Source: a virus
IMG/VR virus record: IMGVR_UViG_3300047095_000228
Span: 1 to 20,658 of that record
Length of the DNA stretch: 20,658 bases
Direction: 5' to 3' (one strand)
The translations under genes were made by a program, and so were the position numbers. How positions within the stretch are numbered: position 1 is the first letter of the stretch; the number at the start of each line of letters is the position of its first letter. The notes under the pieces are model-generated. The model worked only from the letters and a program-made list of their open reading frames with translations, was not told where the DNA came from and searched no databases. Shown here piece by piece: positions 4,675 through 19,374 of the stretch.

Positions 4675-5613
4675 TTAAAAAGGGAGTTTATCGTCAAAGT
4701 TACTATTATGTTCTAATGCTCTGTAAAAAGATTGGGTTTCATTATTCATTACATTCTTTCGTCTTTTAATAGGGTCTATACCACCAATCTTAAATCCTAA
4801 ACCACTATTAAAATCAAATAACAAAGGCATACCCAACTCAGTACATTGACCACCTGTATCTCTATCTTTAATTTTTTCTATGTCTATCATTGTAGAATAT
4901 TTCATTGTAGGATGTTTAACTAACCTGTGAATGATTAACATATCGTCACATCGATTTAAAAAAGGTTTACCGCCTTCTATGTGCGCTTTAAGTGGTGGTT
5001 TCAAATGTCCTTTCCATTCAGGAAAATCATCTCCGTATAACATACCACTTCTACCACTTTCTGAATTAGGGTGTGTTGATACATACAAAGTCTTTCCAGA
5101 TTGATTACAGAATTGTCTTGTAGTATTTAAAAATTCATAATTATCTGAATGCTGCATACCTCTATCTAACCCTGTAAATGGGTCAATAAATCCTATATTT
5201 GCATCTGTAGAACCAATTATATCTAAAACTTCTTTTGGCTTGTATAGTTTTTCATTGCTTAAGAATTTAAAATAGTATTCAATAAATGATTCGTGTTTAC
5301 GTATCTCATCATAAGTTAAATCCTTAAAATGTTTGCCTGAATACATTTGTATTAAATCACGCATCACTTGACCACTTGAGTTTTCACCCATCCAAACAAC
5401 TGTTTTTAAATCGTGATTAGTAGCTAACGCAAGAAAGTACCATTCCATCCAATAAGACTTACCTACATTATCGTGTCCTAAAACTATATTTAGCTGCTTA
5501 CGTTTAAATCTAATGTAGTCATCTAATACGCATCCTATACCCAAACCTTGAGATATCTTACCGCTCTTATAGTCGTTTAAGTATTTTGTGCTATGTCCTG
5601 TTGATAGTATCAT
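4675..5613 (-). CDS. RecA-like/DnaB-type phage helicase (312 aa)
   Basis: Seen: Walker A GHDNVGKS at 46-53, VVWMGENSS at 72-80 after the next strand, Walker B IGFID at 140-144, and YVSTHPNSESGR resembling motif H3-like sensor region (T/S-H-P-N). The C-terminal part (RCDDMLIIHRL, then MIDIEKIKDRDTGG) matches the late strands and arginine-containing end of RecA-fold replicative helicases. There is no N-terminal DnaB primase-interaction domain, so it is a minimal helicase core. It overlaps the initiator gene by ATGA, the usual phage initiator-helicase pair. The last residues NFDDKLPF look like an SSB C-terminal tip. Confidence 0.8.
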   Translation of the reverse strand: MILSTGHSTKYLNDYKSGKISQGLGIGCVLDDYIRFKRKQLNIVLGHDNVGKSYWMEWYFLALATNHDLKTVVWMGENSSGQVMRDLIQMYSGKHFKDLTYDEIRKHESFIEYYFKFLSNEKLYKPKEVLDIIGSTDANIGFIDPFTGLDRGMQHSDNYEFLNTTRQFCNQSGKTLYVSTHPNSESGRSGMLYGDDFPEWKGHLKPPLKAHIEGGKPFLNRCDDMLIIHRLVKHPTMKYSTMIDIEKIKDRDTGGQCTELGMPLLFDFNSGLGFKIGGIDPIKRRKNVMNNETQSFYRALEHNSNFDDKLPF

Positions 5614-6293
5614 TTGTTTAGTTCCATTTGTTTTAAAACGTGTTCGTATCTTATTTGCTCTTCAGATTTAGCTATCTGTTTAGGTTGTTTAGGTAAATAT
5701 GAAATTGTATTACTTAAAGTTGATTTCCAATTTACAATTTTAATCATTTTACCATTCTTCTCCTTACACCAATCATTAACTAACCAACTTTGGTGTTTAA
5801 GTTTTAAGGCTTCTATGGATACATCTTCAATTAATGAAACACCATAAGAAACAAACTCTTCTATACTTGGTATAGTATTCTTTTCATTCTTTACATTCTT
5901 GTTTGTTGTTATCTCCTTGTTATCTCCTTGTTGTCTGTTTGTTGTTTGCTTGTTGTCTCCTTGTTGCTCACTTTGATAACTATCGTAATTACAGACAGTT
6001 AGCCGTGTTGTTTTTCGTAGTCCTTCCGTGTTAATCATTCCATCTTTTTCTAATAATTTTAAAAATGTTCTGAGTTTCTGAATTGTCCAATCCTTACCTA
6101 AAATACTTACCCAAGTAGATAAGCTATTTATACTTTGTCCTCTTTTACATTCTATTAATTCTCCTTCAATAATAACCTTTGTAGATTGATGATTAACCTC
6201 TGAAATAATTACAACCCAAGCCTTAAAATAATTAGCATTTTTAAATACCCAATGGTTTCTAATTTGTCTATGTATTTTAATCCAACCGCTCAT
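5610..6293 (-). CDS. Phage replication initiator, winged-helix N-terminal domain (227 aa)
   Basis: Seen: GWIKIHRQIRNHWVF at 3-17, then FKAWVVIISEVNH, GQSINSLSTW, and RTFLKLLEKDGMI (75-87) and LTVCNYDSYQ (98-107): the layout of phage replisome organiser/DnaD-like initiators with a winged helix. A Gln/Asn-rich linker (about 108-135) holds two QQGDNK repeats and encodes DNA iterons. The C-terminal segment (residues about 140-200; LKHQSWLVNDWCKEKNGK) is consistent with a helicase-loading domain. It overlaps the helicase gene by ATGA. Inferred role: binds the iterons and loads the helicase. Confidence 0.75.
   Translation of the reverse strand: MSGWIKIHRQIRNHWVFKNANYFKAWVVIISEVNHQSTKVIIEGELIECKRGQSINSLSTWVSILGKDWTIQKLRTFLKLLEKDGMINTEGLRKTTRLTVCNYDSYQSEQQGDNKQTTNRQQGDNKEITTNKNVKNEKNTIPSIEEFVSYGVSLIEDVSIEALKLKHQSWLVNDWCKEKNGKMIKIVNWKSTLSNTISYLPKQPKQIAKSEEQIRYEHVLKQMELNK
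5906..5970. repeat. 11-bp iterons inside the initiator gene, candidate replication origin
   Basis: On the plus strand, TTGTTATCTCC occurs at 5906-5916 and 5917-5927 in direct tandem, and TTGTTGTCTCC at 5950-5960; degenerate copies begin at 5928 and 5961. The 11-bp spacing is one helical turn and not a multiple of three: the adjacent copies are read in different codon frames (GDN(K) versus KEIT), so the repeat is conserved as DNA, not as protein. A nearby inverted repeat CTATAC-ttg-GTATAG lies at 5861-5875 in A/T-rich sequence. Iterons within the initiator gene are the known lambda-like origin layout. Confidence 0.6.
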
Positions 6294-6490
6294 ACTTTAA
6301 TTAATTGAATGTGATTAATATTAACTAACAGTCTATAATCAGCTTCTAAGCCAATTGATTTATTTCTGTTTCTTACTTCTTGATTGTATTCAACTAATTC
6401 AATCCAATCTCCTTTTCTTTCTTTGTTTAAAATCTCGTCAAAAGATTCTTCTACATTAAGAACACCATTTGTTAAAACAATTTTTGCCAT
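6290..6490 (-). CDS. Hypothetical protein behind structured leader (66 aa)
   Basis: Reads MAKIVLTNGVLNVEESFDEI at the start, with KGDWIELVEYN in the middle and RLLVNINHIQLIKV at the end, a small beta-rich fold. It is the first coding gene after the leader RNA and overlaps the initiator start by ATGA, so any control exerted by the leader would act on it and on initiator synthesis. The pattern (short strands, then a hydrophobic C-terminal strand) is seen in small phage proteins of unknown function. No family recognised. Confidence 0.6.
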   Translation of the reverse strand: MAKIVLTNGVLNVEESFDEILNKERKGDWIELVEYNQEVRNRNKSIGLEADYRLLVNINHIQLIKV

Positions 6491-6512
6491 AATAATAATT
6501 TATTAAATAACA

Positions 6513-6602
6513 AACCCCGATAAATCCGTAGGAGTCTCACGTCTACTTCATTATCAGGGTTCAATAACTTCTTTAGGTTAACTATGTTTGAGACTCTAAC
6601 CT
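6513..6602 (-). ncRNA. Candidate structured leader RNA with kissing hairpin loops
   Basis: As minus-strand RNA: hairpin 1 is AGGUUA (6602-6597) with UAACCU (6580-6575). Hairpin 2 is AACCCUGAUAA (6561-6551) with UUAUCGGGGUU (6523-6513), 11 bp with one U-G wobble, then an internal loop UGAA/GGAU and an inner stem GUAG (6546-6543) with CUAC (6531-6528). Loop 1 holds GAGUCUCA (6596-6589) and loop 2 holds UGAGACUC (6539-6532): a perfect 8-bp loop-loop complement. The wobble pair would be a C-A mismatch in plus-strand RNA, favouring the minus strand. It begins at the predicted transcription start and ends 23 bases before the 66-aa gene. No known class recognised; a U-rich run follows hairpin 2. Confidence 0.6.
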
Positions 6603-6607
6603 TGTTG

Positions 6608-6615
6608 CAAATATA
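6608..6615 (-). promoter_or_regulatory. Bacteroidota-type -7 promoter box TATATTTG upstream of leader RNA
   Basis: Minus-strand TATATTTG matches TAnnTTTG. It lies just past the stop of the DUF736-like gene (6634). A start site some 4-6 bases downstream falls at about 6603, the exact base of hairpin 1 of the leader. The -33 region is T-rich (CTTTTAG) rather than a perfect TTTG. It would drive the 66-aa gene, initiator, helicase, coiled coil, nuclease and NinG. Confidence 0.65.
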
Positions 6616-6633
6616 ACTAAATTTATTTACATA

Positions 6634-6870
6634 CTAAAAGGGTAAACCAGAACTTTCATTTCTAATCTTGTCAGAAGTATTCTCCATCTTTTTAAATGGT
6701 TCTTGAATCTTACCTGAGAAGAACTTACCTGCTTTCCCATCTTTAACCCATAGACTAATTTCTAATTCTCTTCCGTCTACGTTTATAGTTCCTCTATAGT
6801 CAGGATGTTTTTCGTTTTCTTTCTTGTTATTCTTAAAAATAACTGCCGTGTTGGTGTTGTCGTAACTCAT
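6634..6870 (-). CDS. DUF736/SSB-like small protein (78 aa)
   Basis: Reads MSYDNTNTAVIFKNNKKENE, then HPDYRGTINVDGRELEISLW, DGKAGKFFSGKIQEPF and ends SSGLPF. The order (short strand, KHPDYRG, V.G.E...S.W, KFFS.KI) matches small DUF736-type proteins common in phages and plasmids, an OB-like beta fold. The terminal LPF recalls the C-terminal tip of bacterial SSB proteins, so a single-strand-binding role near the ERF/YqaJ recombinases is possible. Family call moderate, function inferred. Confidence 0.6.
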   Translation of the reverse strand: MSYDNTNTAVIFKNNKKENEKHPDYRGTINVDGRELEISLWVKDGKAGKFFSGKIQEPFKKMENTSDKIRNESSGLPF

Positions 6871-8507: not shown

Positions 8508-8942
8508 TTAAACACATAGCATACCTTCAGCAGCTAATTTTTTCTTAATCAATCGTTCTAAATAAATTAAAGAGTTCTTTTCGTTCTCGCTTGAATCGTT
8601 TGAATAAGGCACACTCAAGTCTATGCAGTTCATTATCTTATCAATCTTTTCTTTTAGCACATAATCAAATCCGTTATTTGCTTGTCTAACTACTTTTAAA
8701 GCGTGAATAACTGTGCTATGGTCTTTATCAAAGAACTTACCTGCTTTGCTCAGGTGCATATTTTCTATTGCTAACCAAACCATACCTAACTGCCGCCATT
8801 GCATTACTTCTCGTTTGCGTGATACTTGTCTAAGATACTCCAGAGAGAAAGGACAAGCTATTAGAAAATCCTCAAACACGAATCTTGTATTCTTAGGAAA
8901 TGAGTTCTTTGTGTCTGTAATTGATTGTATGTTATAATTCAT
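8508..8942 (-). CDS. Stand-alone DnaA domain IV-like DNA-binding protein (144 aa)
   Basis: Seen: RKREVMQWRQLGMVWLAIEN (42-61), then LSKAGKFF and DKDHSTVIHALKVV (72-85). The DHSTVIHA signature (here at 74-81) with the preceding L..G..F.K is the hallmark of DnaA domain IV, which recognises DnaA boxes. There is no AAA+ domain or P-loop, so the protein cannot be an ATPase initiator alone. Inferred: it binds DnaA boxes to recruit or displace host DnaA, or to serve as a phage-specific origin or promoter binder. It ends a coupled gene run and overlaps the preceding gene by ATGA. Confidence 0.85.
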   Translation of the reverse strand: MNYNIQSITDTKNSFPKNTRFVFEDFLIACPFSLEYLRQVSRKREVMQWRQLGMVWLAIENMHLSKAGKFFDKDHSTVIHALKVVRQANNGFDYVLKEKIDKIMNCIDLSVPYSNDSSENEKNSLIYLERLIKKKLAAEGMLCV

Positions 8943-9103
8943 TTTTTTGGTTTTATATATTTGATAAAGTAATCACATTGACCTTTTTCGTTAGGCTTTA
9001 TATCTGCGTATGTTTGCCAATATTTAGATGGTTCTGCCATATATCGGTAACATTCTTTCTTTAGTTTGCAAGTTTCATTTTTGCACATTGCTATATCTGG
9101 CAT
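8939..9103 (-). CDS. Small Cys-rich protein (54 aa)
   Basis: Reads MPDIAMCKNETCKLKKECYR, then YMAEPSKYWQTYADI and GQCDYF. Four Cys in a C-x4-C-x5-C ... C pattern (7, 12, 18 and 43) suggest a zinc-binding or disulfide knuckle. I associate this kind of MPDI.MC...C.LK..CYR...GQCDYF sequence with small hypothetical proteins of Flavobacterium phages. The start is one base after the preceding stop; its stop overlaps the DnaA-domain start as ATGA. Confidence 0.65.
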   Translation of the reverse strand: MPDIAMCKNETCKLKKECYRYMAEPSKYWQTYADIKPNEKGQCDYFIKYIKPKK

Positions 9104-9104
9104 C

Positions 9105-9248
9105 TTATATCTCGTGTATATCTGTTATTAAACCTTTCCATAATTGGAATTTATCTTTAGCATCTGACTGATTGTATGCGCTTACAATTAAGTAACGCTG
9201 CTCCCATTTCTTTAGCTTTACCTTGTATGTTATCTTAAATCTTTTCAT
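9105..9248 (-). CDS. Hypothetical small protein (47 aa)
   Basis: Reads MKRFKITYKVKLKKWEQRYL, then LIVSAYNQSDAKDKFQLW and ends DIHEI. The alternating pattern with YKV..KKWEQRYLIV..Y suggests a beta hairpin followed by a helix. It starts 14 bases inside the preceding gene. No family recognised. Confidence 0.5.
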   Translation of the reverse strand: MKRFKITYKVKLKKWEQRYLIVSAYNQSDAKDKFQLWKGLITDIHEI

Positions 9249-18320: not shown

Positions 18321-18932
18321 TTATTTATTTAATTTTTCAAGGATAGAATCCATTGTAGTTCTTGCTCTTTTAGAAGCAAATTTGAATCCTTCTGCTTTAT
18401 TTACATTCTCAGGGTTGAAAGTGATAGGAGATACTTCCTCTAATTCAACCTTATTCTCTTTAGTAGTTTCTTCAGTAGCAACTTCTGTAGTAGGCTCAAC
18501 TTTTGAAAACATTTCTAACTTAGCTTTCAACTCTTCGTTTTCGATTTTAAGTGCTTCCATTTCTGAGAAGAACGTTTCTTTAACGATAGATTCAACCGTC
18601 TTTTTAATGTCTTTAGGTGCTGCTGCTTCTGCCTCAACTTCTACCTCTGCTTCTGCTTCTGGCTCTTCCATCGGCATTTCCTCTTCCTCTTCTTTTTCTT
18701 TAATTTCAGCAATAATACCTTCTTCGATTACTACCAACATTTTAGAATCTTCCAATTCATACTCTCCTACAGGTAAAGCGATTTTTTGGTCTTCAGCAAC
18801 TATAAATACTTCTGCTCCTGCTTCAAACACTTCAGCTTCTAATACTGTAACTCCGTCTGAAAGTTTCATAGTACCTAATTTAACTTCCATCCCGAGAAGT
18901 TCTTTAATTTGATTGATTACGTTCTTTTTCAT
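18321..18932 (-). CDS. Scaffold-like acidic protein (203 aa)
   Basis: Three regions: an N-terminal beta-rich domain (VKLGTMKLSDGVTVLEAEVF, then VFIVAEDQKIALPVG), a low-complexity Glu/Ala-rich linker (about residues 80-105), and a C-terminal helical region (SEMEALKIENEELKAKLEMF, and TFNPENVNKAEGFKFASKRA). Position between protease and capsid, acidity and helical C-terminus fit an assembly scaffold that the protease removes. The Glu/Ala codon runs explain the repetitive plus-strand DNA around 18630-18700. Recognition is by context, not by a family motif. Confidence 0.6.
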   Translation of the reverse strand: MKKNVINQIKELLGMEVKLGTMKLSDGVTVLEAEVFEAGAEVFIVAEDQKIALPVGEYELEDSKMLVVIEEGIIAEIKEKEEEEEMPMEEPEAEAEVEVEAEAAAPKDIKKTVESIVKETFFSEMEALKIENEELKAKLEMFSKVEPTTEVATEETTKENKVELEEVSPITFNPENVNKAEGFKFASKRARTTMDSILEKLNK

Positions 18933-18951
18933 ATTTATTTATTAAAGAGAT

Positions 18952-19374
18952 TTATAATTTTACATTTTTAGTAGAAACACTTTTAGAATATTTAACTAAA
19001 TCTGCAATATTTTTTAATGTATTATCAATGCTTTTTGGATAATCTATTCCTAAATCTGAAGTCTTATTTACTAAATCTTGGTAGATTTTAGCAGTTCTAT
19101 TATAACCAACATTAATGTTTTGTATTCTTGTTTCAATAGCACCTAAATCAGATTCCAAAGATTTTTTTTGATTTTCTAAATCATCTTTTAATTTAAAATA
19201 TTTATTTAAATTTTTTTCTATTTCATTACTTTCTTTTTTAAGCAAATCTCCTTGTACAACAGTTTCGTTAGCTTGTTTTGTAAAATCATCTACTAATGAT
19301 AATTCTACATTATGCTTTGCTAACTCTATTTTGTCAGGTTGTGAAATCTTTTTAAGAATACTATTTAAACTCAT
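18952..19374 (-). CDS. Coiled-coil protein upstream of the scaffold (140 aa)
   Basis: Reads MSLNSILKKISQPDKIELAK, then a long helix with heptad-spaced Leu/Ile (EIEKNLNKYFKLKDDLENQK, KKSLESDLGAIETRIQNI) and Asn/Ser-rich end (LKNIADLVKYSKSV). Almost entirely predicted coiled coil. It may help scaffold or portal assembly; no family recognised. Its A/T-rich leader contains the repeated element TTCGTGTT described under the findings. Confidence 0.55.
   Translation of the reverse strand: MSLNSILKKISQPDKIELAKHNVELSLVDDFTKQANETVVQGDLLKKESNEIEKNLNKYFKLKDDLENQKKSLESDLGAIETRIQNINVGYNRTAKIYQDLVNKTSDLGIDYPKSIDNTLKNIADLVKYSKSVSTKNVKL

Follow-up and report, generated by a model that had tools for sequence, protein, structure and literature searches.

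A Predicted Leader RNA Family with a Loop-Loop Pairing in Early Operons of Phages of Flavobacterium-Type Bacteria

A Leader RNA before the Replication Genes

The virus record analyzed here, a stretch of 20,658 bases herein referred to as the window, contains a structured segment on the minus strand at positions 6513-6602, directly before genes for DNA replication. This location raises the question of which RNA the segment encodes and what this RNA does for the genes that follow. On one side, the segment is flanked by an SSB-like gene (6634-6870). On the other side, the first gene (6290-6490, minus strand) encodes a 66-aa protein without family match, and in relatives its place is taken by unrelated genes. 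It is followed by a gene for a DnaD-like helicase loader or replication initiator (5610-6293, minus strand; phrog_2514, E 8.7e-31) and by a primase/helicase-type gene (4675-5613). The first-pass annotation, made from the letters of the window alone, had described the segment as the leader of a replication operon beginning at a promoter, and this description is supported. The iterons that it had placed inside the initiator gene are also real, being 11-nt repeats at 5906-5966. Additionally, a small ORF located upstream in the same early region (8508-8942, minus strand) encodes a DnaA C-terminal DNA-binding domain (PF08299, E 2.7e-9).

The promoter, both hairpins, the internal loop UGAA/GGAU and the 8-nt complement between the two loops were all found on the minus strand where the first-pass annotation had placed them. 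A Bacteroidota -7 promoter element, TATATTTG, is located at 6608-6615 (this and the following features are all on the minus strand); among 67 distinct relatives, 63 have an exact TAnnTTTG at most 22 nt upstream of the first hairpin, P1. The 5' strand of P1, AGGUUA (6597-6602), pairs with the 3' strand UAACCU (6575-6580), which is supported by covariation on 33 aligned relatives, and double changes were found in all five modelled P1 pairs. The P1 loop opens with loop-loop strand a, GAGUCUCA (6589-6596), which follows P1 with 0 nt between them, likewise in 33 of 33 relatives, and forms eight of eight Watson-Crick pairs with 6532-6539. The remaining part of this loop, AACAUAGU (6581-6588), corresponds to the consensus AUUAUA, a 6-nt AUUAUA-like stretch being present in most relatives. 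An A/U-rich linker of 13 nt (6562-6574) leads to the second hairpin; over the 67 distinct relatives its length is 10-16 nt, mostly 12-15 nt.

The second hairpin is terminator-like. Its 5' arm is the P2 5' strand AACCCUGAUAA (6551-6561) and its 3' arm the P2 3' strand UUAUCGGGGUU (6513-6523), the latter supported by covariation on the 33 aligned relatives; P2 cells are 99.7% paired, with double changes in 9 of 10 pairs. The internal loop, with UGAA on the 5' side (6547-6550) and GGAU on the 3' side (6524-6527), separates P2 from P3, a helix of GUAG (6543-6546) and CUAC (6528-6531). P3 is 99.2% paired, with double changes in 4/4 pairs, and its 3' strand, too, covaries on the 33 aligned relatives. 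Loop-loop strand b, UGAGACUC (6532-6539), lies inside the P3 loop, 0 nt from the P3 3' strand. The hairpin is followed by the U-rich tract UUUGUUAUUU (6505-6514). The hairpin and tract of the window were not called by a simple terminator scan, which permits loops of 3-8 nt only.

Covariation and Shape of the RNA

Folded as a single sequence without the pseudoknot, the window segment gives z = -1.43, and an equally good fold is reached by 16 of 200 shuffles; thus, one sequence alone does not prove the fold, and comparison with relatives decides. A covariance model, R1, was built from 17 sequences with no pseudoknot included. The alignment used here, A2, holds 33 R1 matches fitted by R1, that is, ignoring the loop-loop pairing. 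Standard pairs occupy 96.3% of its paired cells (73.6% in shuffles). Double changes were found in 24 of 27 pairs (197 cells), a level reached by none of 500 shuffles, so that the compensatory changes proposed as a check by the first-pass annotation are present in all helices as well as in the loop pairing. The covariation score is 0.643, compared with 0.202 in shuffles, and falls to about 0.085 when the partners are slid by one column. RNAalifold recovered the same nested helices.

The loop-loop helix, although absent from R1, is paired in 91.3% of cells and has double changes in six of its eight pairs across the 33 sequences, and the 8-bp pairing noted in the first pass is thereby upheld. One of these pairs occurs as C-G in 12 relatives, G-C in 11, U-A in 4, A-U in 2 and G-U in 1. 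Among the 67 distinct members, 26 different 8-nt pairing sequences were found, all still complementary; this count leans towards complementarity, the parser having allowed at most one mismatch. The strand assignment, earlier suggested by a G-U wobble, rests now on 80 G-U cells against 9 A-C cells, which identifies the minus strand as the RNA strand. Taken over the relatives, the structure, including the 8-bp loop-loop pairing, is near certain as a prediction by comparative analysis.

The anatomy is strict. In the 33 sequences, 0 nt separate the P1 5' strand from strand a and strand b from the P3 3' strand, and usually 2 nt (AA or AG) precede strand b. Since P1 and P3 exit at the same end of the loop-loop helix, an ordinary coaxial kissing complex was rejected on topological grounds for the window's family. 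Among the 67 members, A[A/G]-GU and AC-AUUAUA are strongly conserved and the helices are variable. The frequencies of UGAA (65/67), GGAU (64/67) and AC at the end of strand a (67/67) lean to the consensus, because the parser accepted only sequences with UGA, with 2 nt ahead of strand b and with one of a restricted choice of 3' loops. Strand a of the window ends in CA, which places the window outside this set of 67 sequences. Altered cores were found in FCL-2 and in locus L078. In locus L042 (799-897), the loop strands are mismatched (GGTCTGAC and GTGAGAGC), whereas those of the close relative L020 are intact; decay, recombination or an assembly error may be the cause.

Distribution among Phages

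Neither the locus nor the RNA gave anything useful in blastn searches of phage records, since the family conserves shape and not sequence. Through the 66-aa protein, 9 IMG/VR relatives were found; they carry leaders of two types, with P1, P3 and the two loop strands rewritten and the pairing kept. A degenerate DNA pattern of the conserved core yielded 55 stretches, 13 of them judged to be chance, and a second DNA pattern at least 120, mostly real. The R1 search added members upstream of other DnaD-like genes. In total, the structure parser found the 67 distinct sequences at 132 places among the IMG/VR loci collected, some contigs having been entered twice. Of 42 records scanned over their full length, two contain a pair of copies and the other 40 a single one; overall, one to three elements were found per genome.

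Members were also found in cultured phages. Flavobacterium phage FL-1 has one at 18929-19029 (48.5 bits) and snusmum9-1 one at 9092-9191 (40.1 bits). FCL-2 has a divergent one that scores low (22.6 bits) and is located directly before the replication initiator gp54. Other low-scoring matches of the model, located in Nonlabens phage P12024L and at other places in FCL-2 and FL-1, resemble ordinary terminators and were rejected. A promoter-anchored detector, which has no sequence knowledge beyond the promoter box and asks for a hairpin and a downstream hairpin with a perfect 7-9 nt loop pairing, found 8 leaders, compared with 0.33 in Markov shuffles. They come from FCL-2, FL-1, snusmum9-1, lillamy9-5, FCOV-F56 and the window, six of the nine viral genomes or stretches that were searched. 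In stretches of bacterial genomes (1.69 Mb, both strands), the same detector gave no leader. The covariance model matched one of 397 Flavobacteriaceae genomes, before a gene reading like a replication protein. In 257 Gb of bacterial genomes, the degenerate DNA pattern was found at 116 places; 80 of these were screened for A+T richness, TTTG upstream or a T-run behind, and no survivor resembled a member, nor did the promoter-anchored detector find one in those stretches. Judged by sequence and predicted fold, this leader RNA is a widespread family in phages of Flavobacterium-type bacteria (Flavobacteriaceae). RNA-level control is little explored in Bacteroidota phages, for which this family is a common, covariation-backed case; its presence in cultured phages (FL-1, Ficleduovirus, Muminvirus, Lillamyvirus) makes it testable at once.

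A Class with Exchanged Hairpin Roles

Loci without an R1 match revealed a second class, found at the same place in other phages, in which the hairpin with the AA-GU loop comes first and the partner strand lies in the terminator hairpin. These loci (L083/L397, L384, L386, L388-L396 and L082) have a strong terminator before DnaD-like and other first genes. In about a dozen IMG/VR contigs, the first hairpin reads CTAATAAG-AA-GTAGTGAG-CTTGTTAG and the terminator GAAACCTGTCG-AAA-CTCACTAC-CGATGGGTTTC-TTTTTTTT. Compensatory changes in both P1 and the 8-bp loop-loop helix were found among 10 distinct sequences, and a U-tract is mostly present in the class. Thus, the hairpin with the AA-GU(N6) loop stands second in the window's family and first in the role-swapped class.

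Related forms were found in Ficleduovirus FCOV-F56 (L398, 690-830; pairing GUAGAGAG/CUCUCUAC), Muminvirus snusmum9-1 (L403, 900-1030; GUGGAACG/CGUUCCAC) and Lillamyvirus lillamy9-5 (L415; GUGAGACG/CGUCUCAC), the three pairings being different sequences and perfect matches. Three leaders of this kind, each with a different pairing sequence, were found in phage snusmum9-1: one precedes a helicase gene, one an endonuclease gene and one a helicase-VapE operon. The role-swapped class is without the UGAA/GGAU core and keeps the loop-loop pairing, and the very existence of this version makes the pairing itself look central. It is conceivable, although we hold it with some doubt, that both classes are one RNA device with a single exchangeable loop-loop module: a hairpin X (stem, AA, GU plus 6 nt) and a hairpin Y (6 nt plus AC, A-rich flank) in either order, with pairing sequences differing between copies in one genome, which would set early-operon expression, possibly without a ligand or protein.

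Genomic Context

Where an exact TAnnTTTG was found, P1 begins 2-7 nt after it, usually 3-6 nt. At the other end, of the 9 nt that follow the last GC pair of P2, at least 7 are U in 63 of the 67 distinct members; by comparison, a run of at least 5 T was found in only 13.6% of control gene starts in the same contigs. The U-rich, attenuator-like tail proposed by the first-pass annotation is therefore a property of the family, whereas the window's own tract is weak, weaker than that of most relatives, and the earlier description is corrected in this point. The tract is missing or broken in L371 and in the FCOV-F56 type, which is near-identical in most of 70 phage records and keeps the loop-loop pairing. 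In all 67 members, a co-directional ORF starts 16-49 nt past the hairpin base (median 26 nt, mostly 24-28 nt). A second sense promoter within 60 nt after the hairpin was found in only 2 of 66 cases, which indicates that transcription of the gene has to come through the element.

The following gene is usually a replication gene, from unrelated families, and sometimes another early gene. The first genes encode DnaD-like proteins, DUF6291 proteins or other primosomal and replication types, or are small ORFs ahead of these; helicase and HNH-type endonuclease genes were also found. Exceptions are L124, where DUF6378 stands with thymidylate synthase (a thymidylate synthase/MazG context), L055, where DUF6378 stands with other genes, and the second copy of L036, located before PAPS-reductase-like and ParB-like genes (named by eye). 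Control of replication genes, as earlier proposed, thus describes the usual case, but operons of these other kinds and the HNH-type endonuclease gene fall outside it. The unrelated families of first genes suggest that the element travels as a cassette.

Comparison with Known RNAs

The window had no match in Rfam 15, and a permissive search of 6400-6720 returned noise far below threshold. Likewise, no match at E<=0.5 was found in 12 loci with relatives, and none for L083 of the role-swapped class. The earlier statement that the RNA belongs to no known class is in agreement with this result, as not even an ordinary terminator or known leader of Rfam 15 was matched. No title or abstract describing such a leader was found in the open-access literature. 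The RNA family is new to the sources searched (Rfam 15 and open-access literature titles and abstracts); in kind, it is one of the structured leader and attenuator RNAs.

With intrinsic terminators and attenuator hairpins, the leader shares a GC-rich base, an immediate U-tract and a position before a gene. In contrast to a plain terminator, it has a conserved internal loop and an apical loop paired to an upstream hairpin, and some members are without the U-tract. In the pistol ribozyme, the P1 hairpin loop pairs with a downstream strand, as it does here, and the pseudoknot strand is located in the junction before P3. Strand b of the leader lies instead in the terminal loop of P3 inside P2, 0 nt before the P3 3' strand in 33/33 relatives, and the pistol-type resemblance suggested in the first pass, which Rfam did not match either, was not retained.

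Structured leaders of replication-initiator mRNAs in which loop-loop contacts matter are also known from plasmids under antisense control, such as pT181 and the IncI/IncK/IncB rep mRNA with its kissing RNAI (PMC10724649). There, the antisense RNA kisses in trans, whereas both partners of the phage leader are in one RNA. A TAnnTTTG facing the leader was found in 6 of 66 cases, compared with 19% of control windows (this promoter type only). Antisense-type copy control, which had been considered in the first pass, is unlikely.

Possible Functions of the Leader

The leader stands at the point of commitment to phage DNA replication and probably acts as an on/off or dimmer element for the DNA-copying genes. 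Tentatively, and with confidence slightly short of even, we favor a cis-acting attenuator of early operons whose terminator-like hairpin is held by the loop-loop pairing. This mechanism would build on what the family displays in structure, strand, promoter adjacency, U-tract and nearness to the start codon. Transcription would start at P1, and polymerase coming from the adjacent promoter would make a leader of about 95 nt; P2 and the U-tract would serve as an intrinsic terminator, the features of which (stable hairpin, GC-rich base, immediate U-tract) the family has. The loop-loop pairing would hold the terminator hairpin in one state or tune termination, so that the early operon, mostly one of replication genes, would be expressed according to the share of polymerases reading through. 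A factor making or breaking this pairing would turn the leader into a switch. If the pairing in cis is indeed the switch, its principle would be simple, realized in two orders with many pairing sequences, and could provide a design part for Bacteroidota gene control.

Attenuation, earlier named as a possibility and as such supported, is preferred for two reasons: the U-tract belongs specifically to the element, and downstream of the element the gene has no second promoter. A conserved competing (anti-terminator) fold was not found; pairing of the P2 5' strand with the linker before the 3' arm is made scored 0.30, against 0.24 in swapped controls. A classical two-state attenuator or riboswitch expression platform is accordingly not supported, there being no anti-terminator partner beyond swapped controls. 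A leader peptide was rejected as well, the core AUG being lost in several members. The RNA-seq of the F. columnare CRISPR paper comes from cells grown without phage (PMC8092290) and for this reason contains no phage transcripts. With the U-tract missing or broken in the FCOV-F56 type and L371 and weak in the window, termination is not the whole function everywhere.

We give two other readings a lower probability. The 5'-end structure could protect the early mRNA and open or close the ribosome site, the U-tract being a landing site for the ribosome or S1; we consider such control of translation or mRNA stability rather improbable, yet it would account for the start of P1 only 2-7 nt after the -7 box, for the FCOV-F56 type, and for the narrow distance from hairpin base to start codon, which counts to this extent against attenuation. 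The rarity of T runs at other starts of the same phages makes a terminator tail likelier than a general landing site. Alternatively, the nascent RNA could bind host RNA polymerase and make it resist pauses and terminators further down the early operon. The precedent is HK022 put (PMC9378689), an RNA of about 70 nt with two hairpins and two copies per genome. Located immediately after an early promoter, put binds RNA polymerase and, needing no phage protein, suppresses termination in cis. The leader shares with put the position downstream of early promoters and the number of hairpins and would likewise act in cis, and an RNA-only element present one to three times per genome before unrelated first genes would suit such a role. 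The leader, however, ends in its own terminator-like hairpin and U-tract, and its 8-bp loop-loop pairing and long linker (10-16 nt) are unlike put, for which PMC9378689 mentions no pseudoknot. This antitermination is unlikely.

Lower still in probability are a free small RNA and the sensing of a ligand. In the former case, most transcripts would end at the U-tract and the compact RNA of about 95 nt would act in trans, for example on a host protein. The promoter and terminator-like end of its own, the compact fold and the near-invariant core are in keeping with this, but a co-directional start codon always follows within 16-49 nt, practically without its own promoter, little unpaired sequence is left for pairing with a target, and the role-swapped class does not keep the core; we regard a free RNA as quite improbable. 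Improbable to a still higher degree is a riboswitch, or a leader sensing a protein, whose putative binding site would be formed by AUUAUA and the UGAA/GGAU internal loop. Conservation of UGAA, GGAU, A[A/G]-GU and AC-AUUAUA while helices vary would fit it, as would the thymidylate synthase/MazG context; on the other hand, the downstream genes share no pathway and the cores of FCL-2 and L078 are altered. The role-swapped class, which keeps the loop-loop pairing and has no UGAA/GGAU core, speaks against a single conserved ligand pocket.

Other Structured Elements

Several further elements were observed in the analyzed loci. FL-1 contains tRNA-like ends (ggagtgtggcgg...ccactcc with gggttcgaaccc) around a long insert (L375, 3496-3670), perhaps an intron-bearing tRNA or tmRNA-like gene, for which ARAGORN reports nothing. 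In L137, some 900 nt upstream of a DnaD-like gene, positions 2094-2159 match the Rfam int-alpA RNA at 36.0 bits, barely over the gathering score; in the L137 leader upstream of the DnaD-like gene, an early ATGTGGG is complementary to CCCACAT in a terminator-like hairpin. Upstream of the DnaD-like gene of L134, a hairpin with T8 was found immediately before the ATG. In Maribacter phage Panino (L378, 1750-1860), another terminator-like structured leader, which has no R1 match, is located between SSB and the replication operon, with a possible alternative pairing GTCAG/CTGAC.
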